Below are positions 32,118-47,491 of a stretch of 64,000 bases of DNA, in pieces. The translations under genes were made by a program, and so were the position numbers. The notes beneath the pieces were generated by a model. It was not told where the DNA came from. It saw only the letters and a program-made list of their open reading frames with translations, and made no database searches. The stretch comes from Methylococcus mesophilus. GTDB taxonomy: Bacteria > Pseudomonadota > Gammaproteobacteria > Methylococcales > Methylococcaceae. The stretch is from positions 3,417,501 to 3,481,500 of the forward strand of contig NZ_CP110921.1 of NCBI RefSeq assembly GCF_026247885.1. The letters run 5' to 3'. Each line of letters begins with the position of its first letter. Within the stretch, counting starts at the first letter, position 1.

Positions 32118-34580
32118 TCAGGCGATGCAGGCATTCGCTTTCCGCTCCGCGGGCGTCAACGGTTCGAACTCGTGTTTTTCCGCTCCCTGTGCGCGCTCGG
32201 CCCAGGGATCGATCTGCGCCTTGCGCTGCGATTCCAGGAAGCGCGCGCAGAGCGCCCTGCGGCCAGCGGCATCGTCGACGATGCGGCTCTGCACGTACGG
32301 CAGTCCGACCCGTTCGATCCAGTGCGCGGTGCGTTCCAGGTAGCGGGCCTCCTCGCGGTAGAGCTGCATGTAGGCCGCGGCGTATTCCATGACTTCCTCA
32401 TCCGCCTGCACCTTGCAAAGAAAGTCGGTGGCGCGCACCTTCACGCCGCCGTTGCCGCCGACGTGCAGTTCCCAGCCGGAATCCACGGCCACCACCCCGA
32501 AATCCTTGATCGTGGCTTCGGCGCAATTGCGCGGGCAGCCGGACACCGCCATCTTGACCTTGGCCGGCGTCCACGAGCCCCAGGTCATCTTCTCCAGCTC
32601 GATGCCCAGGGTGGTCGAATCCTGCGTGCCGAAGCGGCACCATTCCTTGCCGACACAGGTCTTCACCGTCCGCAGCGACTTGCCGTAAGCATGGCCGGAC
32701 ATGAGGCCGTGTTTGCCCAGCTCCGCCCACATGGCTGGCAGCTGCGCCTTGGGCACGCCCAGGAGGTCGATGCGCTGGCCGCCGGTGATCTTGACGCAGG
32801 GGACCCGGAATTTTTCCGCCACGTCGGCGATGGCCCGCAGTTCGCGCGGATTGGTCACGCCGCCCCAGATCCGGGGAACCACGGAATAGGTGCCGTCCTT
32901 CTGGATGTTGGCATGAACCCGCTCGTTGATGAAGCGGGATTGCGGGTCGTCCCGGTACTCGTCCGGCCACTGGCACAGCAGGTAGTAATTGAGCGCCGGG
33001 CGGCAGGAATGGCAGCCGTCCGGCGTTCGCCAGCCCAGCGAACCCATGAGTTCCGGAATGGTTTTCAAAACCTGGGTACGGACGGCTTCCCGCACCTCCT
33101 CGTGGGTGAGGTCCGTGCACCGACACAGAGGCTTTTTGGCGGGACTGACCGAGTAATCGCTGCCCAGGGTGCTCTGCAGGATCTGTTCGACCAGACCGGT
33201 GCAGGAACCGCAGGAGGCCGAGGCCTTGGTGTGGGCGCGCACTTCGTCCAGCGTGAACAGCTTCTTCTGGACGATGGCATCGACGATGGCTTTCTTGCAG
33301 ACGCCGTTGCAGCCGCAGACTTCTGCGTCTTCCGGCAGCCGGGCGGCATGGCTTTCGGCACCGTGGCCGGAATCGCCCATGTGGGCCTGGCCGAACAGGA
33401 TGTTCTCGCGGAAGGCGGAGATGTCGGTTCCGTCCCGCATCATCTGGAAATACCAGGCGCCGTCCACGGTATCGCCGTAGAGCACTGCGCCCGCGACCTT
33501 GTTGTCGCGGACCACCAGCTTCTTGTAGACGCCGCGCGAGGGATCCTGGAGCAGCAGTTCCTCGCAGCCGGCGCCGCCCTGGTATTCCCCGGCGGAGAAG
33601 AGGTCGATGCCGGTGACCTTGAGCTTGGTCGAGGTGACCGATCCTTGGTAGCGGGCGATGCCGAATTCCGCCAGATGGTTGGCGCAGACCTTGGCCTGCT
33701 CGAACAGCGGTGCGACTAGGCCGAACAGCTCGCCGCGGTGCTGCACGCATTCGCCGACCGCGTAGACCTGGGGGTCGAAAGTCTGCATCGTGTCGCTGAC
33801 CAGGATGCCGCGTTCGCAATGGATGCCGGATGCCTTGGCCAGCCCGACGTTGGGGCGGATGCCCACCGCCATGACCACCAGATCGGCAGGGATTTCCGAA
33901 CCGTCTTTGAAGCGGACCGCGCGGACCCGGCCTTCGCCCAGCAGCGCCTCGGTCTGGGCTTCCAGCTTGAAGTCCAGGCCGCTGTCTTCCAGGGCCCGTT
34001 GCAGCAGTGCCGCGGCCGGTTTGTCGAGCTGCCGCTCCATCAGGGTGTCGAGCAGGTGCACCACGGTGACGTTCATGCCGCGCTTCTTGAGGCCGTTGGC
34101 GGCTTCGAGCCCCAGCAGGCCGCCGCCGATGACGACGGCGTGACGGTGCTTTTCCGAGGCTTCCAGCATCAGCTCGACGTCGCGGATGTCGCGGAAGCCG
34201 ACCACGCCTTCCAGGTCCTTGCCCGGCACCGGCAGGATGAAGGGCGCCGAGCCGGTCGCCAGCAGCAGGCGATCGTAGCCGGCTTCAGTCCCGTCTTCGG
34301 TGCGGACCTTGCGGCAGACGCGGTCGATGGCGACGACTTTTTTGCCCTTGTGCAGGGTGATGCCGTGCTCGGCATACCACGCGTCGTCGTTGAGGATGAT
34401 GTCGTCCAGTTTCTTCTCGCCGGCAAGCACCGGCGAGAGCAGGATGCGGTTGTAGTTGGGATGGGGTTCGGCGCCGAACACGGTGATGTCGTACTTGCCG
34501 GGCGCCAGCTTCAGCAGCTCCTCCAGTGTGCGGACACCGGCCATGCCGTTGCCGATGAGGACGAGTTTGGGCTTGCTCAT
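32118..34580 (-). CDS. nirB: NADH-dependent nitrite reductase large subunit
   Basis: 820 residues. The order of domains is FAD/NADH oxidoreductase (LVLIGNGMAGVRTLEEL at the start, then VVIGGGLLGLEAANGL), BFD-type [2Fe-2S] segments (VCGCNGVCKKAI and SASCGSCTGLVEQ at about 415-470), and the siroheme/[4Fe-4S] sulfite-reductase-like domain (WCRFGTQDSTTLG near 640 and SGCPRNCAEATIKDFG near 685). It reduces nitrite to ammonium in the cytoplasm. It overlaps the preceding kinase/phosphatase gene by four bases. Confidence 0.96.
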   Translation of the reverse strand: MSKPKLVLIGNGMAGVRTLEELLKLAPGKYDITVFGAEPHPNYNRILLSPVLAGEKKLDDIILNDDAWYAEHGITLHKGKKVVAIDRVCRKVRTEDGTEAGYDRLLLATGSAPFILPVPGKDLEGVVGFRDIRDVELMLEASEKHRHAVVIGGGLLGLEAANGLKKRGMNVTVVHLLDTLMERQLDKPAAALLQRALEDSGLDFKLEAQTEALLGEGRVRAVRFKDGSEIPADLVVMAVGIRPNVGLAKASGIHCERGILVSDTMQTFDPQVYAVGECVQHRGELFGLVAPLFEQAKVCANHLAEFGIARYQGSVTSTKLKVTGIDLFSAGEYQGGAGCEELLLQDPSRGVYKKLVVRDNKVAGAVLYGDTVDGAWYFQMMRDGTDISAFRENILFGQAHMGDSGHGAESHAARLPEDAEVCGCNGVCKKAIVDAIVQKKLFTLDEVRAHTKASASCGSCTGLVEQILQSTLGSDYSVSPAKKPLCRCTDLTHEEVREAVRTQVLKTIPELMGSLGWRTPDGCHSCRPALNYYLLCQWPDEYRDDPQSRFINERVHANIQKDGTYSVVPRIWGGVTNPRELRAIADVAEKFRVPCVKITGGQRIDLLGVPKAQLPAMWAELGKHGLMSGHAYGKSLRTVKTCVGKEWCRFGTQDSTTLGIELEKMTWGSWTPAKVKMAVSGCPRNCAEATIKDFGVVAVDSGWELHVGGNGGVKVRATDFLCKVQADEEVMEYAAAYMQLYREEARYLERTAHWIERVGLPYVQSRIVDDAAGRRALCARFLESQRKAQIDPWAERAQGAEKHEFEPLTPAERKANACIA

Positions 34581-36364
34581 AGCGAGTCTCCATTATTGTG
34601 AATCAAGGGGTTGTTTCGGGATGCCGCTTCCGAAGGCGGGTAGGAGGGCAGCGACAGGCGCAGGCCGGCCACGGCCAGGAGGGCCAGCAGCAGCGCCGCG
34701 ACGGCCTTCCAGAACAGCAGGGGATTGCGCTCGTACAGCGGCAGGGGCCGGCGGGGAATGCGCCTGCCCCCGCCTTTTTCCAGTCCGGCCTCCAGTTCGT
34801 AAGCCAGTTCCACGGCATCGGCCGGGCGCAGCTCCGGATCGGCCGCGATGGCGCGGGCCAGCACCGCGTCCAGCCAAGCCGGGAGGTCCGGGCGGTGGGC
34901 GGTCAGCGGTTTCGGGCTGCCGAAACGCGGCGTGCAGAACGGCTCGATCTCGCCATAGGGGTAGGCGCCGCCGGCGAACATCCGGTACAGGGTCACGCCG
35001 AGCGCGAACACGTCGGCGGCGATGCTGCCGCGTTCGCCCTGGAACATTTCCGGCGCCATGTAGCTGGGGGTGCCCGGGATGGGATCGGCCCGATCCACAT
35101 CCCAGGCCGGCAGCCGGGCGATGCCGAGGTCCAGCAGCTTGAGGCCGCCTTCCGGCTCCAGCAGGACGTTGTCCGGCTTGATGTCGCGGTGGACGATCTG
35201 CTGGCGGTGCAGCGCATGCACCGCCTTGCACAGTTTCAAGGCGAGATCGATGCCGGCTTCCAGGCTGACGCGTGGCCGGCGCGCCAGCTCGTGCTCCAGG
35301 GAGGCGCCGGGATAGAAAGGCATGACCGAATAGAGCCGGCTCTGGCGTCCGGGAGTCTGCTCGAGGATCTCGCCGACCCAGGGGCTTTTCACCCGGGCGC
35401 CGATCCAGGCTTCGCGCACGAAGGCGTCGTAGTATTCCCGTTCGCTGGCGACGCGAGGATGCGGAAACTTCACCACCACCGGCTTGTCCTGGCCCAGAGT
35501 GTCGGCCGCGAGGAACAGCGCGCTGTAGCGCCCCGAGGACAGCAGGCGTTCCAGCCTGAAACCGTCCACCTCGTTGCCCACCTCCGGCAGATCCAGCAGC
35601 GGCAGGGATTCGATGGCGAGGCGCAGCGACTGCTTCTCCGCGGGCGGGAGGGCGATGACGTCCACCACCAGGGCGGTGATGTTGTCCTGGCTGCCCTGCT
35701 CGAATGCCCGGAGCGCCAGCGCCTCGGCCGTGGTTTCGGGGGTGGCCCGTTCCTGCAGGATCTCCCTGATCTGTTCCTGTTCGAGGCTGCCGTGCAGGCC
35801 GTCGCTGCAGAGCAGAAAGCGGTCGTGCGGTTCCAGCGGGTACACGCCGTAATCGATCCGGAGGCCGGGATCGAGTCCGACTGCGCGGTACAGCACATGA
35901 TCCAGCCCCGGCCCGCTCAGGGTGTGATCCGAGGTCAGCAGCTCGGGTTCGTCGCCGCGCAGGCGGTAAATCCGGGAATCGCCCACATGCACCAGATAGG
36001 CGCGGCGGCCGCGGAAGATCAATCCGCTGAAGGTGGTGCCCATGTGCGCCAGCTCGGGATCGCGCCGGCCCACGGCATGCACCCAGCGGTTGACCGAGCC
36101 CAGGCAACGGTCCAGCAGCTGTTCCATGGCTAAGGTTTCGGACAGGCCGTAGTAGGCTTCCATGAAGCCGCGCACCGACACTTCCGCCGCGACCCGGCCG
36201 CCACGGGCGCCGCCGATGCCGTCGGCCACCGCTGCCACGAAGCCGCGCGCAGCGGCATCCCGCGGCGGCGGCTCGGCGACGCCGGCAAAGTCCTGGTTGT
36301 CTTCGCGCCGCCCCTGCAGGGAGACGAAGGCGGCGCGGAGGACGGGTTGGCCGGGAACGGTCAT
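34577..36364 (-). CDS. PP2C phosphatase / Ser-Thr protein kinase fusion
   Basis: 595 residues. Residues 1-240 form a PP2C phosphatase (GRREDNQD, VADGIGGARGG, HVGDSRIYRLRG, GSQDNITALVV); residues 265-530 form a Hanks-type kinase (lysine in KPVVVKFPHP, HRDIKPDNVLL, DLG in place of DFG, GTPSYMAPEMF); the C-terminus has one membrane span (WKAVAALLLALLAVAGL). The gene lies between narK and nirB and overlaps nirB by four bases, so it is co-expressed with nitrate assimilation. A kinase gene at the same operon place exists in Pseudomonas (from memory), so this is a conserved association. The substrate is unknown. Confidence 0.92.
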   Translation of the reverse strand: MTVPGQPVLRAAFVSLQGRREDNQDFAGVAEPPPRDAAARGFVAAVADGIGGARGGRVAAEVSVRGFMEAYYGLSETLAMEQLLDRCLGSVNRWVHAVGRRDPELAHMGTTFSGLIFRGRRAYLVHVGDSRIYRLRGDEPELLTSDHTLSGPGLDHVLYRAVGLDPGLRIDYGVYPLEPHDRFLLCSDGLHGSLEQEQIREILQERATPETTAEALALRAFEQGSQDNITALVVDVIALPPAEKQSLRLAIESLPLLDLPEVGNEVDGFRLERLLSSGRYSALFLAADTLGQDKPVVVKFPHPRVASEREYYDAFVREAWIGARVKSPWVGEILEQTPGRQSRLYSVMPFYPGASLEHELARRPRVSLEAGIDLALKLCKAVHALHRQQIVHRDIKPDNVLLEPEGGLKLLDLGIARLPAWDVDRADPIPGTPSYMAPEMFQGERGSIAADVFALGVTLYRMFAGGAYPYGEIEPFCTPRFGSPKPLTAHRPDLPAWLDAVLARAIAADPELRPADAVELAYELEAGLEKGGGRRIPRRPLPLYERNPLLFWKAVAALLLALLAVAGLRLSLPSYPPSEAASRNNPLIHNNGDSL

Positions 36365-38778: not shown

Positions 38779-40860
38779 TCAGTGCCGGCGCATCGCATCG
38801 GCGATCAAACCGAGGGTCAGCACAGCGCCGCTGACGCCAAAGCCCGCAGGGATCCATTCCGCGACCGCCGCCGAGCCGGCCGTGAGTCCGGCGGCAAGCA
38901 CGCTGGCGGCGGCCGTCAGCCCCAAGGCCACGCGGTGGCCGGTTTGGCGCACGGCGTCCTCGAGCGTGTTGGCGCGGAATTTCACCTCGAGCTTGGGTCC
39001 CGGCCGGGCGCCGACCAGCCGTTCCAGCGCGTCGATCACCCGTGTGGCCCGCACCTGCAGCTTCTGGGATTGGTAAAGCAGAGCCTTGGGATCGAGGCGG
39101 GACCGCATGCCCTTGAACATCGACCGCAGCAGGAAATGGCCGGCGATGTCGAAAGGATCAAGCGTGGGGTCCAGCCGCGCCGTGGCCATCTGGACCTGGG
39201 CCAGCGCCTTGCCGATCAGCGTCAGTGAAGCCGGCATGGGGACCTCGTAACGCAGCGCGATCTCACACATTTCCTGGAGAATCACGCCGATCTGCATGTC
39301 CGCCAGCGCCGCCGTCCGGTATTTCGCCATCAGCTCGCCGATTTCGGCCTGGAAGCGGGCAATGTCCAGATCGCTTCGGTCGGTGGCGCCGGCCAGCATC
39401 AGCGCGACTTCGCTGAGGAATACGGCATCACCCTGCCAGAACGCCATCAGCAGCAGCATGAGGTTTTCGCGGATCTCGGGGCCGACGTCGCCGACCATTC
39501 CGAAATCGAGGAAATAGATGCGCTCGTTCCACCACTTCAGATTGCCGGGGTGCGGGTCGGCGTGGAAGAAGCCGTCGACGAGAATCTGCTTGTAATAGCT
39601 TTCCAGCAGTTGCCGGGCGGCCTTCGACCGCTCGGGGCCTTCCGGCGCTTCCACCACCGGCACGCCCTGGACTTCTTCCATCACCAGGATGCGCGTGGTG
39701 GACAAGTCGTTATAGATCGCGGGGACGCTGAGACGGTCGTAGCCCATGAGGACCTCCCGCATCCGAGCGATATTCTCGGCCTCCTGCCGGAAGTCGAGTT
39801 CGCGGTGCAGCGATGAGGAGAGGTGCTTGAACACCGCTTCCATGTCGATGACTTTTTTCAGGGCCGGACGCTCTCCGACCTTTTCGGCGAACACCTCCAG
39901 CAGGGCGAGATCCTGTTCGATCTCTTCCCGGGCGTTGGGCCGCTGCGCCTTGACCACGATCCGGCTTCCCCCCACCAGCGTGGCGCGGTGAACCTGGGCG
40001 ATGGTGCCGGCGGCCAGCGGTTTCGGCTCGATCGACTCGAACACGTCCTCCCAGGGCACGCCGAGTTCCCGCTCGAAGACGCCGACGACTTCCCGCTCGG
40101 TCAGCGGCGGCACGTGGTCCTGCAGCTTCTCCAGTTCCTCGATGTACTCGCCGGGCAGCAGGTCGGGCCGAGTCGACAATATCTGGCCGAGCTTGGAAAA
40201 GGTGGGGCCGAGCTCTTCCAGCGCCGAACGCAGCCGTTTGGCCTGCCGCCGCCGGCCGGTCGATCCTTCCTCATCCGGACGTCCGAACAGCTCCTTCAAT
40301 CCGTGCTTTGCCATTACCGCCGCGATCTGGCCGCCCCGTGCCATCAGCCGAGGCTCGGTCGGCGCCGGCTCGCCGCCACGGACGAAGATCTGCGCGGGCT
40401 TGGAGGCCCGGTCGCTCGCCGGCATGGTATTCACGATCACCACGGTGCAGCGGGCGTTGTGGCTGATGCGGTTCGGGACGTTGCCCAGCAGGAACTCCTT
40501 CCGACCCGCCATGCCCAGGTTTCCGACGACCAGCACGTCGATTTTCTCCTGCTCGGCCGCGCGGACGATCGCCGCGGCGGGATCGGGGTCGATGAGGACC
40601 CGTCCGTGGCCGCGCGCACCGGCGAGCTGGCGGGCGTAGGCGGCGAGTTCCTCGCCCGCCAGAGCGGCCTGGGTTCGTTCGGCGGCGCCGTATTCCGTGG
40701 ACGCCGGATTCCTGGGCGAAATCACCTGCGCCACGACGAGCTCGGCGCCGTACCGTTCGGCGAACGATGCGGCCCATCGGACCGCCTGATCTGCCGTTTC
40801 GGACCTGTCGGTCCCGACCATGACGCGCTGGGTTTCGGTCTGTTCCGCTGGGCTTTTCAT
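38779..40860 (-). CDS. Universal stress protein / UbiB-ABC1 kinase-like fusion
   Basis: 693 residues. Residues 10-145 are a universal stress protein domain (VMVGTDRSETADQAVRW, and the ATP motif G-x2-G-x9-G in VVGNLGMAGRKEFLLGNV). Residues about 205-560 are a UbiB/ABC1/COQ8 atypical kinase: KLGQILSTRPDLLP (KxGQ), AAGTIAQVHRA (Ala-rich loop), VKAQRP (Lys), FFHADPHPGNLKW and YFLDFGMVG. Two C-terminal membrane helices follow (VALGLTAAASVLAAGL and FGVSGAVLTLGLI). UbiB proteins support ubiquinone synthesis or membrane lipid handling. The fusion with a stress-protein domain is uncommon. It is a single gene near the cyclase cluster. Confidence 0.88.
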   Translation of the reverse strand: MKSPAEQTETQRVMVGTDRSETADQAVRWAASFAERYGAELVVAQVISPRNPASTEYGAAERTQAALAGEELAAYARQLAGARGHGRVLIDPDPAAAIVRAAEQEKIDVLVVGNLGMAGRKEFLLGNVPNRISHNARCTVVIVNTMPASDRASKPAQIFVRGGEPAPTEPRLMARGGQIAAVMAKHGLKELFGRPDEEGSTGRRRQAKRLRSALEELGPTFSKLGQILSTRPDLLPGEYIEELEKLQDHVPPLTEREVVGVFERELGVPWEDVFESIEPKPLAAGTIAQVHRATLVGGSRIVVKAQRPNAREEIEQDLALLEVFAEKVGERPALKKVIDMEAVFKHLSSSLHRELDFRQEAENIARMREVLMGYDRLSVPAIYNDLSTTRILVMEEVQGVPVVEAPEGPERSKAARQLLESYYKQILVDGFFHADPHPGNLKWWNERIYFLDFGMVGDVGPEIRENLMLLLMAFWQGDAVFLSEVALMLAGATDRSDLDIARFQAEIGELMAKYRTAALADMQIGVILQEMCEIALRYEVPMPASLTLIGKALAQVQMATARLDPTLDPFDIAGHFLLRSMFKGMRSRLDPKALLYQSQKLQVRATRVIDALERLVGARPGPKLEVKFRANTLEDAVRQTGHRVALGLTAAASVLAAGLTAGSAAVAEWIPAGFGVSGAVLTLGLIADAMRRH

Positions 40861-40964: not shown

Positions 40965-42284
40965 TCAGTTTTCAGCGGCTTCGATCATCGTTTCCGCGAT
41001 CATGCCGTATACGGTTCTCCAGGCATGCTGGACTTCCGGCGTGAATTCCTCGGCGAGGAATTCTTCCAGGGTTCTGATCAGCACGCGGGACACCTTGTCG
41101 TAATCGATACGGCTGACGCCGTATTCCTGGTGGCGCTTTCCGAGCGCGCGCAGGCCGCCGACGATCTCTGGCATTCGGTTCAACCCTTTCACGGCGGAAC
41201 TCAGGATCGACATGAGCATTTTGCTCTGTGCCGTGAGGTCGCTGCGGAACAGCGGCCGCAGTTCCGGGTAAGTATCGAAGAGGTTGGCGTAGAAGCGTTC
41301 GCCGAATGCGGCGGCGCGCGGCACGAGGTTGTCGAAGGACGACTGCACCAGGAAGATCGTGTCGGGAACGGTGAAACCCCGGCAGGGGTAGAGCTGCATG
41401 GGCGCGGTTTTGCCTTTGAGTGGAACCGCGAACGGCGGATCGAGTTGGAGCGCTCCGGGGAGCTGGCTGACTACGCTGTCGCTGAGCAGGATCGGGGTCG
41501 CGAACTCTTTGGTCATGCTCTCGATCCGGCTCGCCGTGTTGACCGTATCGCCGATCACGGTGATCTGCCGCTTGCCGGGGTGGCCGATGCGGCCCAGGAT
41601 GGCGGTTCCGAAATGGATGCCGATGCCGATATGCAAGGGAACATGGAATTGCTGTTCGAGCGTCGGGGCAAGCCGGCGTGCGGCCTCCAGCATTCCGAGC
41701 GCTGCGCGGACCGCATTCCGGCAGGCGGTTTCCGGGGATTCGTCGCGGGTGCCGAACGCCGCCAGGATGCCGTCCCCGATGTACTTGTCGATGAAGCCGT
41801 TGTTGTTGAGCACCGGCTCGGCCGCCGCGGTGAAATAGCGGTTCAGCATGTGCACGATGTCGTAGGGCAGGTTTTGTTCGCTGTGGGTCGTAAAGTCCCG
41901 AATGTCGGAGAAAAGCACGGCCAAATCGAGCTCCTTCCCTTCGCCGGCGCTTCCCCCGTGAAGTTCTTCCAGGTCGAGCACGATGATGTCCTGGGAGTTG
42001 TCGAGCAGCCGGCGAACGACCACGTCCCCGTGCACATGGGTCTGACAGGCCAGCCGGGTGAATTCGTCCCAGCCGCGTTCGGACGCCACTTTCTCTTCCA
42101 GAGGGCTTCGCGGTGAGACATGGGAAAGTCCGTCGAGAATTTGGATGCGGCAGGTGGTGCAGCGCGCCTGGCCGCCGCACTGGTGAAGATGGGGAATCCT
42201 GTGATGGATCGAAACATCGAGCAAGGTCTGTCCTTCCGGGATGTCCTCGAAAGTGATTTCATGAAAATACGTGACCTTAGGCAT
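40965..42284 (-). CDS. Ferredoxin-adenylate/guanylate cyclase-globin fusion
   Basis: 439 residues in three parts. Residues 1-95 are a [2Fe-2S] ferredoxin domain with Cys36, Cys42, Cys45 and Cys80 (QCGGQARCTTCRI). Residues 118-300 are a class III cyclase with both metal Asp residues (VLFSDIRDF, Asp127; DKYIGDGILAAFG, Asp171) and the transition-state Asn/Arg region DTVNTASRIE. Residues 310-439 are a globin-like domain with a candidate proximal His385 in LGKRHQEYGV. I infer nucleotide cyclase activity controlled by redox state and by a heme ligand (oxygen or NO). The next gene upstream, 53 bases away, also ends in a cyclase. Confidence 0.88.
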   Translation of the reverse strand: MPKVTYFHEITFEDIPEGQTLLDVSIHHRIPHLHQCGGQARCTTCRIQILDGLSHVSPRSPLEEKVASERGWDEFTRLACQTHVHGDVVVRRLLDNSQDIIVLDLEELHGGSAGEGKELDLAVLFSDIRDFTTHSEQNLPYDIVHMLNRYFTAAAEPVLNNNGFIDKYIGDGILAAFGTRDESPETACRNAVRAALGMLEAARRLAPTLEQQFHVPLHIGIGIHFGTAILGRIGHPGKRQITVIGDTVNTASRIESMTKEFATPILLSDSVVSQLPGALQLDPPFAVPLKGKTAPMQLYPCRGFTVPDTIFLVQSSFDNLVPRAAAFGERFYANLFDTYPELRPLFRSDLTAQSKMLMSILSSAVKGLNRMPEIVGGLRALGKRHQEYGVSRIDYDKVSRVLIRTLEEFLAEEFTPEVQHAWRTVYGMIAETMIEAAEN

Positions 42285-42337: not shown

Positions 42338-43921
42338 TCATGCTGAGCCAAGGAGATAAGCCTTCATCGGGCCTTTACCCCGGATGTCGATGGTGCCGCG
42401 TTCTTCGAACTCGAAACGGCCGCGGAGCAGTCCGTAGGTGCTGGCGGCGACCTGCGTACGGCCGGGCAGGCCGTGCGACTCCATGCGGCTCGCCGTGTTG
42501 ACCGTATCGCCCCAGAGGTCGTAGATGAACTTCTTCTGCCCGATCGTGCCGGCGATGACGGGGCCGGTGCAGATGCCGATCCGCATTTTCAGCTCTGCCG
42601 GGCACTGGGCGCTGATCCGGTCGATGGTCCGGTGCATGTCCTGCGCCATGCGGGCGGCGGCGGCCGCGTGGTCCTGGTGCGGGAACGGCAGCCCGGCCGC
42701 GGCCATGTAGGCGTCGCCGATGGTCTTGATCTTCTCCAGCCCGTGCCGGTCCGCCAGTTCGTCGAAGGCGGAAAAAATCCGGTCGAGGAGACGCACCAGC
42801 TGGGTGGGCGGCATCGCCGTGGACAAGGCGGTGAAACCCGCCAGGTCCGCGAACATCACCGTGACCTCGTCGAAGGTGTTCACGATATGGCCTTCGCCCT
42901 TTTTCAGGCGGTCGGCGATGGGCTGAGGGAGGATGTTCAGCAGCAGCCGGTCGGAACGCGCCCGTTCCCCGTCGATCTGCTTCAGGTAGACCTGCTCGAG
43001 GTCGCGCAGCCGCTTTTTCTCCAGCACGGCGCCGATGCGCGCGCGCAGGACGATCGGATTGAAGGGCTTGGCGAGGTAGTCTTCCGCACCGAGCTCGATG
43101 CAATGGGCGATGCCCTCCACCTGGTCCAGCGCCGAGATCATGATGACCGGCACGTGGCTCAGGGCCTCGTCGGATTTGATGCGGACCAGGACTTCGTCGC
43201 CGTTGAGTTCGGGCATGAGCATGTCCAGCAGCACCAGGTCCGGCAGGGTGTCGCGGACCAGTGCCAGCGCTTCCAGGCCGTCCCCGCACGTCGTGATGCG
43301 GTAGCCCAGCTTTTCCAGCCTTCTGCGCAGCAGGTCGCGATTGGGTTCGTCGTCGTCCGCCAGCAACAGATGACCGGTGCAAAGGTTACGGAAGGGGGCT
43401 TCGGTGGGAGGGATGCTGACCCAGTGTTCCCGCAGGCGCGGGGAATTCGCGGCCGGAGGCGGTGGGTTCGAGGGTGGTTCGGGAGGCGGATTCGAGCGCT
43501 TGCCGAAATGTTCCTCCATCATCTCCAGCCAGGTGCGGGCGGCGGAAACGATCCTGGCGAGGTCGGGTTTGAGCTCCGGCTGGCCCAGCTCGTCGCACTG
43601 TTCGGTCAGCAGTTCGCCATAGCCGATGATGTGATTGACCGGAGTGCGAAGCTCGTGGCTGAGGGCGTGGAGATCGGGTTCCGCGTTGGGCGTGCAGTCC
43701 TCGCCCAGATGCCGGTTGATCAGCGCCAGCAGGATGTAGCCGCTGCTGTGGATCTTTTCCAGGTCCGTGACGAAAGCCGCGGGCAGGCTGTCGGCGGTTT
43801 CCTCCCGGAGGATTTCGGCATAGCCGATGATATGGTTGATGGGTGTCCGCAGGCCATGGCGGATTTTCGCCAGGCCCAGTTTCCCCCGGTTGTCGGGAGA
43901 CGCCGCCGTCGTGCCGGTCAT
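42338..43921 (-). CDS. Two-H-box / receiver / adenylate cyclase protein
   Basis: 527 residues. Two histidine-kinase H-box segments in tandem (RHGLRTPINHIIGYAEIL, His22; SHELRTPVNHIIGYGELL, His89) are followed by a Pro-rich linker (about 144-160), a receiver domain (184-300, phospho-Asp233 in DLVLLDMLMPELNG) and a class III cyclase (about 345-527; VMFADLAGFTALS and KTIGDAYMAAAGLP). No HATPase domain is present, so the H-boxes could receive phosphate only from another kinase, perhaps the divergent hybrid kinase. The nucleotide (cAMP or cGMP) is not settled. It is divergent from that kinase across a 290-base gap. Confidence 0.88.
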   Translation of the reverse strand: MTGTTAASPDNRGKLGLAKIRHGLRTPINHIIGYAEILREETADSLPAAFVTDLEKIHSSGYILLALINRHLGEDCTPNAEPDLHALSHELRTPVNHIIGYGELLTEQCDELGQPELKPDLARIVSAARTWLEMMEEHFGKRSNPPPEPPSNPPPPAANSPRLREHWVSIPPTEAPFRNLCTGHLLLADDDEPNRDLLRRRLEKLGYRITTCGDGLEALALVRDTLPDLVLLDMLMPELNGDEVLVRIKSDEALSHVPVIMISALDQVEGIAHCIELGAEDYLAKPFNPIVLRARIGAVLEKKRLRDLEQVYLKQIDGERARSDRLLLNILPQPIADRLKKGEGHIVNTFDEVTVMFADLAGFTALSTAMPPTQLVRLLDRIFSAFDELADRHGLEKIKTIGDAYMAAAGLPFPHQDHAAAAARMAQDMHRTIDRISAQCPAELKMRIGICTGPVIAGTIGQKKFIYDLWGDTVNTASRMESHGLPGRTQVAASTYGLLRGRFEFEERGTIDIRGKGPMKAYLLGSA

Positions 43922-44211
43922 GGCGCTGGCGGCCGATGAATCGGCGTCGAGTCCGTGGGGTCCATGGTGCCTCGCAAAGACTTTAAGGGTCGGCTTCGAA
44001 AATCCATGCCCGGTAAGGCTTCGAAGGGGTTTCGAGCGACCTCATTGCCGTCCGGCGCAGGTCGGATATCCCTGCCGACCCTGCCAGGCTGGTCTCTGGA
44101 AGGCGCCTTGACATTCCACCGATTTCCGTAAACGCTGTCAACGGGGGCGAGCTGCCGGGCCCTGTGCGCCGTGCTCCCAGACGCCGGTCAACGCCCATCG
44201 GAGAGCCGATC

Positions 44212-46308
44212 ATGTCAAGTCGAGAGATTTCCCCGGCGAGTCCGCCCAATCCGGAGAGTATCGAGCAGGTCTCGCAGCTGCGCTGGTTCTCCTACGGGCT
44301 CGTGCTCGTGGCGATAGCCGCGATGGTGTTGTTCTCCTGGCCGAAGCTGGCGGCGAACCTGTTCGCGACCGGCGTCAGCGGCCAGTCCTTCATGCCGCAC
44401 GGCATGTGCTACCTCTGGGTGCCTCAACTGTGGTGGCTGCACCTGAGCACCGATCTCCTGATCGGGCTTTCCTACGTCTGCATCTCGGCGACCCTGGTAT
44501 ATCTCATCCATCGGGCCCGCCGCGACATACCGTTTTCCTGGGTATTCCTGGCCTTCGGGCTGTTCATCATCGCCTGCGCGGTCACCCATTTCATGGGGGC
44601 ATGGACGATCTGGAACGCGAGCTACTGGCTGTCCGGATACACCAAGCTCCTGACCGCCGTGGTTTCGGTCGCCACCGCGCTGGTGCTGCCCTTGCAGGTT
44701 CCCAAGGTCCTGAGCCTGGTCGAGGCCGTGAAGCTGTCGGAACAGAGGAAGTCGCAACTGGAAGCCGCCCACATCGAACTGGCGGAAGCGCGCGACGCCG
44801 CCCTCGAAGCGACGCGGCTGAAATCCGAGTTCCTCGCCAACATGTCGCATGAGCTGCGCACGCCGCTCAACGCCATCATCGGCTACAGCGAGATCCTGGC
44901 GGAAGATGCCGAGGACGCGGGGCGCGAAGAGGAACTGGCCGACCTGAACAAGATCCGCGCTTCCGGCAAGCATCTGCTGGCCCTGATCAACGACGTGCTG
45001 GACCTTTCGAAGATCGAGGCGGGCAAAATGGAGGTCTACCTGGAGACCTTCGAGGTGGTTCCCATGCTCGACGACGTCGTGGCGACCATTGCGCCGGTGG
45101 TCGCCAAGAACAACAACCGCCTCGAGGTCCAGTACGCCGAAGGCACGGGTTCGATCCGGGCCGACCTGACCAAGGTACGGCAGGCGCTGTTCAACCTGCT
45201 GAGCAATGCCTCCAAGTTCACCCGCGACGGCGTCATCACCCTGGCCGTCGACAGGGAAAGCGTCGATGGAAGGGATTGGCTGCATTTCGCCGTCCGCGAC
45301 ACCGGGATCGGCATCACACCGGAACAGATGAGCCGTTTGTTCCAGGCGTTTTCGCAGGCCGATGCGTCGACCACACGGAATTTCGGCGGCACCGGCCTGG
45401 GGCTGGTCCTGAGCCGCCGTTTCTGCCAGATGATGGGCGGGGACATCACCGTCGAGAGCGAAGCGGGGGTCGGCTCGACCTTCACGATTCACCTGCCCGT
45501 CGATGGCGGCGTGCCGGAAAAGGCGCAGGCCGCCGAGCCCGGATCGGCTTGGTCCAAGGGGATTCCCACCGTGCTGGTGATCGACGACGATCCGGCGGCG
45601 CGCGATCTGATGCGGCGCTTTCTGGATCAGCAGGGCCTGCGCATGGAGGAGGCGGACAGCGGCCAGGAAGGGCTGAAACTCGCCAGGGAACTGAGGCCGG
45701 GCGCGATCATTCTCGACGTCATGATGCCGGGAATGGACGGCTGGGCGGTATTGACGGCGCTGAAGGCCGATCCGGAACTGGCGCCGATTCCGGTCATCAT
45801 GGCCACTATTCTGGACGAGAGGAATCTGGGGTTCGCCCTCGGCGCCACCGATTTTCTGACCAAGCCGATCGACAGGGACTACCTGGCCAAGGTGCTGCAG
45901 AAGTACCGCTGCGCCCATCCGCCTTGTCCCGTGTTGCTGGTGGAAGACCACGCCGACCTCAGGGCACTGATGCGCCGCATGCTGGAGCACGAGGGCTGGG
46001 TGGTCGAAGAGGCCGAAAACGGGCGGGTGGCGCTCGAACGGGTGGCGGAAAACCGCCCCGAATTGATCGTCCTCGACCTGATGATGCCGGAAATGGACGG
46101 CTTCAGTTTCCTGGAGGAATTGCGCCAGCAGGAAGCCTGGCGTTCGATACCCGTGATCGTCGTCACCGCCAAGGATCTCACCGCCGAAGATCGCCAGCGC
46201 CTGAACGGCTACGTAGAATACGTGGTCAACAAGGGGACGCGGGGAAGGGAGGAACTGCTGCAGGAACTCGGCGACCGGATCAGCGCATGCCTCGGGACAA
46301 CAGCCTAG
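44212..46308 (+). CDS. Hybrid histidine kinase with ethylene-receptor-like sensor
   Basis: 698 residues. The N-terminal membrane part (about 25-165) resembles the ethylene-binding domain of ETR1: Asp81 and Tyr88 (STDLLIGLSYV, D-x6-Y), and Ile119, Cys122 and His126 (FIIACAVTHFMGAW, I-x2-C-x3-H) match the five copper/ethylene residues. After a coiled linker come the phospho-acceptor helix (MSHELRTPLNAIIGYSEIL, His213), the ATPase domain (to about 435) and two receivers (ILDVMMPGMDGW and VLDLMMPEMDGF). The ATG has GGAGAG six bases upstream; a GTG 16 codons earlier is a weaker start. It is probably co-transcribed with the receiver gene 11 bases on. Confidence 0.9.
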   Translation: MSSREISPASPPNPESIEQVSQLRWFSYGLVLVAIAAMVLFSWPKLAANLFATGVSGQSFMPHGMCYLWVPQLWWLHLSTDLLIGLSYVCISATLVYLIHRARRDIPFSWVFLAFGLFIIACAVTHFMGAWTIWNASYWLSGYTKLLTAVVSVATALVLPLQVPKVLSLVEAVKLSEQRKSQLEAAHIELAEARDAALEATRLKSEFLANMSHELRTPLNAIIGYSEILAEDAEDAGREEELADLNKIRASGKHLLALINDVLDLSKIEAGKMEVYLETFEVVPMLDDVVATIAPVVAKNNNRLEVQYAEGTGSIRADLTKVRQALFNLLSNASKFTRDGVITLAVDRESVDGRDWLHFAVRDTGIGITPEQMSRLFQAFSQADASTTRNFGGTGLGLVLSRRFCQMMGGDITVESEAGVGSTFTIHLPVDGGVPEKAQAAEPGSAWSKGIPTVLVIDDDPAARDLMRRFLDQQGLRMEEADSGQEGLKLARELRPGAIILDVMMPGMDGWAVLTALKADPELAPIPVIMATILDERNLGFALGATDFLTKPIDRDYLAKVLQKYRCAHPPCPVLLVEDHADLRALMRRMLEHEGWVVEEAENGRVALERVAENRPELIVLDLMMPEMDGFSFLEELRQQEAWRSIPVIVVTAKDLTAEDRQRLNGYVEYVVNKGTRGREELLQELGDRISACLGTTA

Positions 46309-46705: not shown

Positions 46706-47491
46706 TCAGAATTCGAAAACCTGTCCCTGCCGAACGAAGCCGTGGAAACCCGCTCCGGCTGCGTCGGGCAGGGGGCCGTCCTGGTAGTGGTATAGCCACA
46801 TTTTTTTCCGGATCGACGCCGGAAGTCCGCAAAGTTCCCCGTAGTGCGCATGGATGCCGGATCGCCGCGGGGCCGTCTCGCAGTCCTGGAAGATGACGTC
46901 CGCGCTGTCGTAGAGTCCGGCGAGGCGGTCGGGACAGAACTGGGTATCGGTTGTCAACACGATTCTGCAACGAGGCTCGGCCATTTCCGGCGCAGCGCCT
47001 TCCGCATGAACGTCGATCATCAGACCGTAGCTCGGAGCGAGCTCGCGACAGTCGAAATAGTGCAGCGTCGAGAAAAGACGTAGTTCGAGGCTCCCGAACC
47101 GGAATGCCCCGCCAGGGGAAAGGCGGTGGACCGTAGAGAAGAAGTCGTCCAGACGCATCGACCTTCCGTGGACGGAGGCCATGCCCCCTCGCAGCGATCG
47201 TTCCCAGAGCATCTCGGCCAGCCGCTTCTCGATGAAGAGTTCCGGCCGCATCCCGCCGGAAAAATAACGCGAAAAGCCCAGCCATTCGATGCCGCCGATA
47301 TGATCGGCATGCAGATGGCTGACGTAGAGGGCGTCGATGTCTTCCGCCCCCAGTCCCAGCCGGTGCAGGGCAAGGCGCGCGTCGCTCCCGCAATCGATCA
47401 GGAGTTTCCTGCCCTGGCTCTCGACCAGGACATTCGACTGGTAGTTTTGGAGGGCAAAGGCAGAACCGACACCGATGAACGTCAGCTTCAT
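46706..47491 (-). CDS. MBL-fold metallo-hydrolase
   Basis: 261 residues with a metallo-beta-lactamase fold. The metal motif is VSHLHADHIGGIEW near residue 58 (H-x-H-x-D-H), with further His/Asp in LTTDTQFC and GIHAHYGE. The layout recalls RNase Z-like and cyclic-nucleotide phosphodiesterase members of the family, so a role in breaking down cyclic nucleotides from the nearby cyclases is possible but only inferred. It is convergent with the receiver gene (14 bases between stops). Confidence 0.8.
   Translation of the reverse strand: MKLTFIGVGSAFALQNYQSNVLVESQGRKLLIDCGSDARLALHRLGLGAEDIDALYVSHLHADHIGGIEWLGFSRYFSGGMRPELFIEKRLAEMLWERSLRGGMASVHGRSMRLDDFFSTVHRLSPGGAFRFGSLELRLFSTLHYFDCRELAPSYGLMIDVHAEGAAPEMAEPRCRIVLTTDTQFCPDRLAGLYDSADVIFQDCETAPRRSGIHAHYGELCGLPASIRKKMWLYHYQDGPLPDAAGAGFHGFVRQGQVFEF

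Follow-up and report, generated by a model that had tools for sequence, protein, structure and literature searches.

Introduction

Chimeric globins generally carry the globin at the N-terminus, and so do the globin-coupled sensors, whose globin belongs to the sensor lineage, according to an excerpt of PMC1457004. A heme globin and a cyclase are united in one chain in HemAC of Leishmania, which the excerpted text of PMC12755159 presents as a globin-coupled soluble adenylate cyclase, and which is also named in the reference list of PMC7033309. Among methanotrophs, HGbRL is a genus-restricted fusion, as a portion of PMC4476040 describes it, and the same portion names the B10 and E7 positions of Hell's Gate globin I (HGbI). 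Electrons may be supplied to globins by flavin reductases, either within the same chain or as separate proteins, in the account excerpted from PMC3820574.

The locus described here lies in a 64,000-nucleotide stretch of DNA from Methylococcus mesophilus, analysed as a whole and referred to below as the window. It holds a real, intact and rare gene, in which an F-type globin has been added to a Fer2-cyclase, that is, to a protein with a [2Fe-2S] ferredoxin (Fer2) domain before a class III cyclase. The three-domain anatomy of the 439-residue product is firm, and sensing by it is something that we infer. The function that is favoured here, at about an even chance, is that of a soluble enzyme that makes cAMP and takes a redox input through its N-terminus and an input of O2 or NO through its C-terminus.

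Results

Domain order and cofactor ligands

The gene and its domains are placed as follows.

40965..42284, minus strand: whole gene, Fer2, class III cyclase and globin in that order, 439 residues (open frame, Pfam, 98% identical frame in G005)
41973..42284, minus strand: [2Fe-2S] ferredoxin domain, residues 1-104, with Cys 36, 42, 45 and 80 (Fer2 35.6 bits, phmmer)
41373..41972, minus strand: class III cyclase domain, residues 105-304, with D127, D171, K167, T242, N249 and R253 (Guanylate_cyc 71.2 bits, Foldseek)
40968..41372, minus strand: globin domain, residues 305-439, with Y332, Q353, L357 and H385 (Globin 51.6 bits, 3s1i, model)

The first-pass annotation had read this order of three domains in a single 439-residue chain, and the reading is borne out by three Pfam matches over their cut-offs, namely Fer2 at residues 14-84 (35.6 bits, cut-off 21, E 8.8e-9), Guanylate_cyc at 121-293 (71.2 bits, cut-off 21.9, E 1.1e-19) and Globin at 330-433 (51.6 bits, cut-off 22, E 1.7e-13), as well as by a second species whose protein is 98% identical in amino acids. 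All three matches are far beyond chance, and no other Pfam family matches the protein at E up to 1. An artefact of the reading frame is ruled out by the retention of the same frame in G005 and by a low dN/dS.

The four cysteines that had been proposed as cluster ligands, in the arrangement C-x5-C-x2-C...C, are located at C36, C42, C45 and C80. The nearest solved relative of the ferredoxin domain in phmmer is terpredoxin (E 1.6e-7), and an E. coli-type ferredoxin and an adrenodoxin homologue were matched as well. The cyclase had likewise been called intact, and it is so found: beside the score of 71.2 bits, over the Guanylate_cyc cut-off, both metal-binding aspartates (D127 and D171) and the Asn/Arg pair (N249 and R253) are present, which places the domain among the class III cyclases. 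With Fer2 directly before this cyclase and all four cysteines in place, the protein belongs to the Fer2-cyclase family. In class IIIb adenylate cyclases, the two base-selecting positions are held by Lys and Thr, and the corresponding pair here is K167 and T242; D127, D171, K167, T242, N249 and R253 are together a residue set that we take to be that of a class IIIb adenylate cyclase. A Foldseek search with the cyclase domain ranks the catalytic domain of CyaC from S. platensis first. However, Cya2, which is titled a guanylyl cyclase, is also structurally close, so that ATP is predicted as the substrate from the residues only.

The first description spoke of a globin-like domain with a candidate proximal His385, and fold prediction of residues 305-439 was the check proposed for it. 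Residues 306-439 match solved globins in phmmer (3s1i, Hell's Gate globin I, E 7.2e-23; 3ubc, 9.5e-23; 3wfw, HGbRL, E 1.2e-19; 1vhb, Vitreoscilla, E 1.6e-14), and an AlphaFold2 model of the same residues, made from the single sequence without an alignment (pLDDT 74.0, pTM 0.64), best matches Hell's Gate globin I in Foldseek (3s1i, E 3.3e-6, TM 0.68), with 24 matches at E up to 0.001. The heme-pocket residues are TyrB10 (Y332), GlnE7 (Q353), LeuE11 (L357) and HisF8 (H385), where we take L357 to be E11 and H385 to be F8, and all four are invariant in the eight rows of the globin alignment; His385 is thus placed at the proximal position. By sequence and model, the domain is therefore a globin of the Hell's Gate globin I/Vitreoscilla type, and the non-globin fold that would have told against the first description was not obtained. 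A PF00042 match over the cut-off, the globin fold, HisF8, TyrB10 and GlnE7 put it among the F-type (flavohemoglobin or single-domain) globins, and it is the only PF00042 match in the whole genome.

Two familiar kinds of globin protein are ruled out. A flavohemoglobin is excluded because Pfam, searched to an E of 1, matches no FAD or NAD reductase domain in the protein; the NCBIfam flavohemoprotein model does cover residues 309-436, at 57.4 bits against a cut-off of 432, and the score lies so far under the cut-off because the reductase part is absent from the chain. A globin-coupled sensor is excluded because the globin is C-terminal (330-433) and belongs to PF00042, and no sensor-type globin model matches at E up to 1. 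As to the origin of the domain, a tree of 39 globins gives it no supported close sister.

A model of the full-length chain (pLDDT 81.6) was built on 18 alignment rows in which the query is the only row bearing a globin, and at pTM 0.56 it does not predict how the domains are placed relative to one another. Helix A of the globin begins at residue 309 in this model, five residues after the end of the last cyclase strand at 304, and the globin is thus joined almost without a linker. The connection between Fer2 and cyclase, residues 97-113, has a pLDDT under 50.

The Fer2-cyclase family and the reach of the architecture

Fer2-cyclase fusions had been cited as an existing kind of protein, and they are indeed common: 61 distinct frames were collected, which makes the pair a widespread chassis. 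The four cysteines and D127, D171, N249 and R253 are kept in 61 of 61 frames, K167 in 45 and T242 in 53. Because the cysteines and the core catalytic residues are invariant throughout, the tie between Fer2 and the cyclase holds whether a globin is present or not. When a tree of the 61 is rooted at its midpoint, the Fer2-cyclase part of the present protein falls in a group of 25 members with a support of 100, where it has a long branch to itself.

Whole-protein searches for the three-domain architecture covered the 61 relatives, 398 genomes from the phylum, 311 of the order, 369 from the class, 48 genomes from the class to which G070 belongs and 78 from that of G244; these sets overlap and cover part of the known genomes, and in the phylum, order and class sets the first four or five candidates were scored in many genomes, so that further cases can be missed. 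The three-domain protein was found in G000 and G005 (98% identity) and, shortened, in G003. No second lineage with Fer2, cyclase and globin appeared in any of these six sets, or in a profile scan of contigs across the best 80 of about 580 confirmed stretches; in that scan, 25 of the 80 loci had Fer2 and cyclase in one frame, and none of the 80 had a globin frame. In all, 225 loci yielded 71 globin frames; cyclase and Fer2 are present as well in 11 of these, every one of them a copy of the present gene from G000, G005 or G003. Among the genomes searched, Fer2, cyclase and globin in one chain have thus been seen only in this genus. A common architecture, which would have undone the earlier suggestion that this exact domain order is undescribed, was not seen in these genome sets, covering as they do part of the known genomes. 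Nor was a Fer2-cyclase-globin protein described among the matches listed from the open-access literature, judged by title and start of abstract, where a mention in a domain census is possible. The suggestion stands within that scope.

The family also bears on what the ferredoxin does. It has to be considered that Fer2 mainly reduces the heme, by which it would keep the globin ferrous or turn over NO dioxygenation, with the cyclase reporting the state of the heme; cluster and heme would then be one sensor rather than two. This is consistent with the type of globin, which is that of flavohemoglobins (the NCBIfam flavohemoprotein match of 57.4 bits over 309-436), and with the donation of electrons to globins by flavin reductases, linked or separate, described in the excerpt of PMC3820574. 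However, the chain has no reductase domain in Pfam, and 58 of the 61 frames join Fer2 to a cyclase with no globin in the chain (the other three are those of G000, G005 and the shortened G003). Because Fer2 accompanies the cyclase in these 58, its first partner is the cyclase, and for this reason two separate inputs are favoured over a purely heme-reducing role, which we regard as unlikely though well short of negligible.

A second metal-cofactor domain is found at the C-terminal end in two other members of the family, L058:1033-2475 (minus strand) and L086:5908-7320 (plus strand; Mesorhizobium hawassense), both of the order Fer2, cyclase, Rieske. Since Rieske and globin occupy the same end, such a domain has been gained there more than once. 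In these two proteins, two different types of [2Fe-2S] domain flank one cyclase.

Gene neighbours were also considered. At L063:5420-8783, in G214, a Fer2-cyclase gene is flanked by two separate globin genes: the upstream one, about 0.5-0.8 kb away, has the same strand, and the downstream one, about 0.1 kb away, the opposite strand. Of the 28 frames with 4 kb or more of flank on each side, a set that includes the genes of G003 and G005, no other has a separate globin gene close by (the other 33 of the 61 had shorter flanks). By profiles, none of 20 regions around single-domain globins of the class (L192-L211) has a cyclase or Fer2 frame. A general link of globin and Fer2-cyclase as gene neighbours is not supported by these mostly negative results, one case in 28 and none in 20. 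The G214 Fer2-cyclase has Asn in place of the base-selecting Lys.

At L188:3544-4974 (plus strand) and L189:3389-5494 (plus strand), from two genomes of the same order, a C-terminal globin also follows a long N-terminal part that no Pfam family matches. The DNA ahead of the globin in L188 encodes repetitive Glu/Gln/Arg-rich sequence.

Genomic neighbourhood

The surrounding genes are listed below.

42338..43921, minus strand: upstream neighbour, 53 bp away, two HisKA stretches, a receiver and a class III cyclase (Pfam)
38779..40860, minus strand: downstream neighbour at a distance of 104 bp, in which a universal stress protein is fused to an ABC1/UbiB-like kinase (Pfam)
44164-46308, plus strand: divergent histidine kinase whose N-terminus resembles that of ethylene receptors (ETR1_N, 110 bits) and which also has receiver domains (Pfam)
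46706..47491, minus strand: Apyc1-like MBL-fold protein (PF23023 108.3 bits, cut-off 50; 7u2r E 2.4e-32 over residues 2-259)

The upstream neighbour has the cyclase motifs and no Pfam match to HATPase_c, the ATPase domain of kinases, and it is 96-97% identical in G002, G003 and G005; it is possibly an adenylate cyclase under phosphorelay control. The downstream neighbour matches the NCBIfam UbiB model under its cut-off. The Apyc1-like protein is a candidate cyclic-nucleotide phosphodiesterase, a reading against which NCBIfam sets partial RNase Z matches far under their cut-offs. G002, G003 and G005 likewise have both the neighbouring cyclase and the MBL gene, the latter being incomplete in G002 at the edge of the stretch. 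The genome has three class III cyclases, and two of these lie with the candidate phosphodiesterase within about 6.5 kb; one cNMP-binding protein in the genome scores over the cut-off. Because pMMO subunit A has two matches in the genome, the host is a methanotroph. Elsewhere in the window, at 34577-36364 (minus strand), one chain combines a Ser/Thr protein kinase domain with a phosphatase of the PP2C type.

History within the genus

Synteny of the locus extends to G002, G003 and G005. Across six species of the genus the gene is intact in two, shortened in one and not found in three, including one empty syntenic site: in G002 the flanking neighbours are about 65 bp apart with no gene between them. 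G001 (87% complete) and G004 gave weak ferredoxin-type matches only to the 439-residue protein, and the neighbouring cyclase was unmatched in them at E 1e-40. Missing or shortened in four of six species, the gene is dispensable. It might even be a young chimera on its way out, weakly expressed or unneeded, whose function has not settled, and the patchiness within the genus is what this would produce. However, dN/dS in the intact pair (G000 against G005) is 0.089 for the whole gene, lower than the 0.126 and 0.101 of two neighbour genes in the same comparison, and all cofactor and catalytic residues are kept; such a transient is thus considered improbable.

By domain, dN/dS in the same pair is 0.075 for Fer2, 0.062 for the cyclase and 0.109 for the globin. 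In G003, an in-frame deletion of 333 bp has removed residues 275-385, and with them the end of the cyclase (residues 275-304) and the B10, E7, E11 and F8 positions of the globin; the first 274 codons there have a dN/dS of 0.04-0.05, and the leftover end of the globin one of about 0.5, over few sites. These values bear on the idea that the globin has no regulatory part, and instead removes NO or O2 from the surroundings of the cluster, or does no more than stabilise the dimer, leaving the ferredoxin alone to regulate the cyclase. Constraint on the first 274 codons of a gene that has lost most of its globin would agree with this idea, as would the 58 globin-free frames, from which it appears that Fer2-cyclases work without a globin elsewhere, and the fact that this is the sole PF00042 globin of the genome fits scavenging. 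However, the intact pair shows constraint on the globin as well, hardly any linker separates it from the cyclase, and because the G003 deletion takes the end of the cyclase as well, G003 is no proof of a cyclase working without its globin. A globin of this purely accessory kind is therefore judged improbable.

Discussion

Taken together, the data allow a model in which the 439-residue protein would be a soluble class IIIb adenylate cyclase, presumably acting as a homodimer and producing cAMP. The adrenodoxin-type [2Fe-2S] domain would provide an input of redox state or of cluster integrity, as may be expected across the Fer2-cyclase family, and the binding of O2 or NO at the globin would provide the second, the Hell's Gate globin-type heme domain having probably been added in the genus some five residues past the last catalytic strand. 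The sensing of redox state and of O2 or NO by a single enzyme was the proposal of the first-pass annotation, and it is retained here as a hypothesis; the loading of cluster and heme, the direction of regulation and the gas that is sensed are parts of the model that we infer. In favour of the model are the three domains, the cofactor ligands, the catalytic residues, conservation in two species and the presence of a second cyclase and a likely phosphodiesterase in the locus, together with the cNMP-binding protein of the genome, the close attachment of the globin, the Rieske domains gained at the same end by two other Fer2-cyclases and the globin genes on either side of the Fer2-cyclase gene of G214. 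Against it count the closeness of Cya2, the variability of K167, the missing or shortened gene in four of six species, the low pTM of the full-length model, and G214 as the only case of a neighbouring globin. More tentatively, and as a possibility that we would not put as high as an even chance, the protein could be a one-chain cAMP gate, whose rate is set by the ligand state of the heme and the redox state of the iron-sulfur cluster, or in which the flow of electrons from cluster to heme is itself the signal, as for example in the turnover of NO dioxygenation; it would then be an invention specific to the genus, on a widespread chassis that has also taken up a Rieske domain at the same end.

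The Fer2-cyclase pair is widespread and its cysteines are invariant in all 61 frames, yet among the matches listed from the open-access literature none was found to test whether an iron-sulfur cluster controls a class III cyclase, and none described, by title or start of abstract, a Fer2-cyclase under redox control. A soluble member of 439 residues with a second, spectroscopically convenient cofactor makes this question directly testable, as the states of heme and cluster could be set separately with cAMP as the readout. The protein would, in addition, be a case of an F-type globin on a bacterial adenylate cyclase, and its host is a methanotroph whose growth needs a supply of O2.

Among known systems, the Fer2-class III cyclases of Pseudomonadota, Cyanobacteriota, Planctomycetota and other groups have the same order of Fer2 and then cyclase and are up to 45% identical to the present protein, but they are of two domains, or have a long N-terminal part, and lack the globin. 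The Fer2-cyclase-Rieske proteins of L058 and L086 likewise end in a metal-cofactor domain, which is a Rieske [2Fe-2S] domain in them and a heme globin here. HemAC of Leishmania is eukaryotic, its globin precedes the cyclase, and it is not known to have a ferredoxin domain. Globin-coupled sensors resemble the present protein in joining a globin to a signalling enzyme, but the globin here is C-terminal and of PF00042. Flavohemoglobins share its type of globin, whereas the present chain has no FAD or NAD domain and carries the globin at its C-terminus. The closest solved globins are Hell's Gate globin I and HGbRL of Methylacidiphilum (3s1i and 3wfw), both of the TyrB10/GlnE7 type; HGbI is a single domain, unlike the three-domain chain described here, and HGbRL has an N-terminal globin, a Roadblock/LC7 domain and no cyclase, whereas in the present protein the globin is C-terminal.
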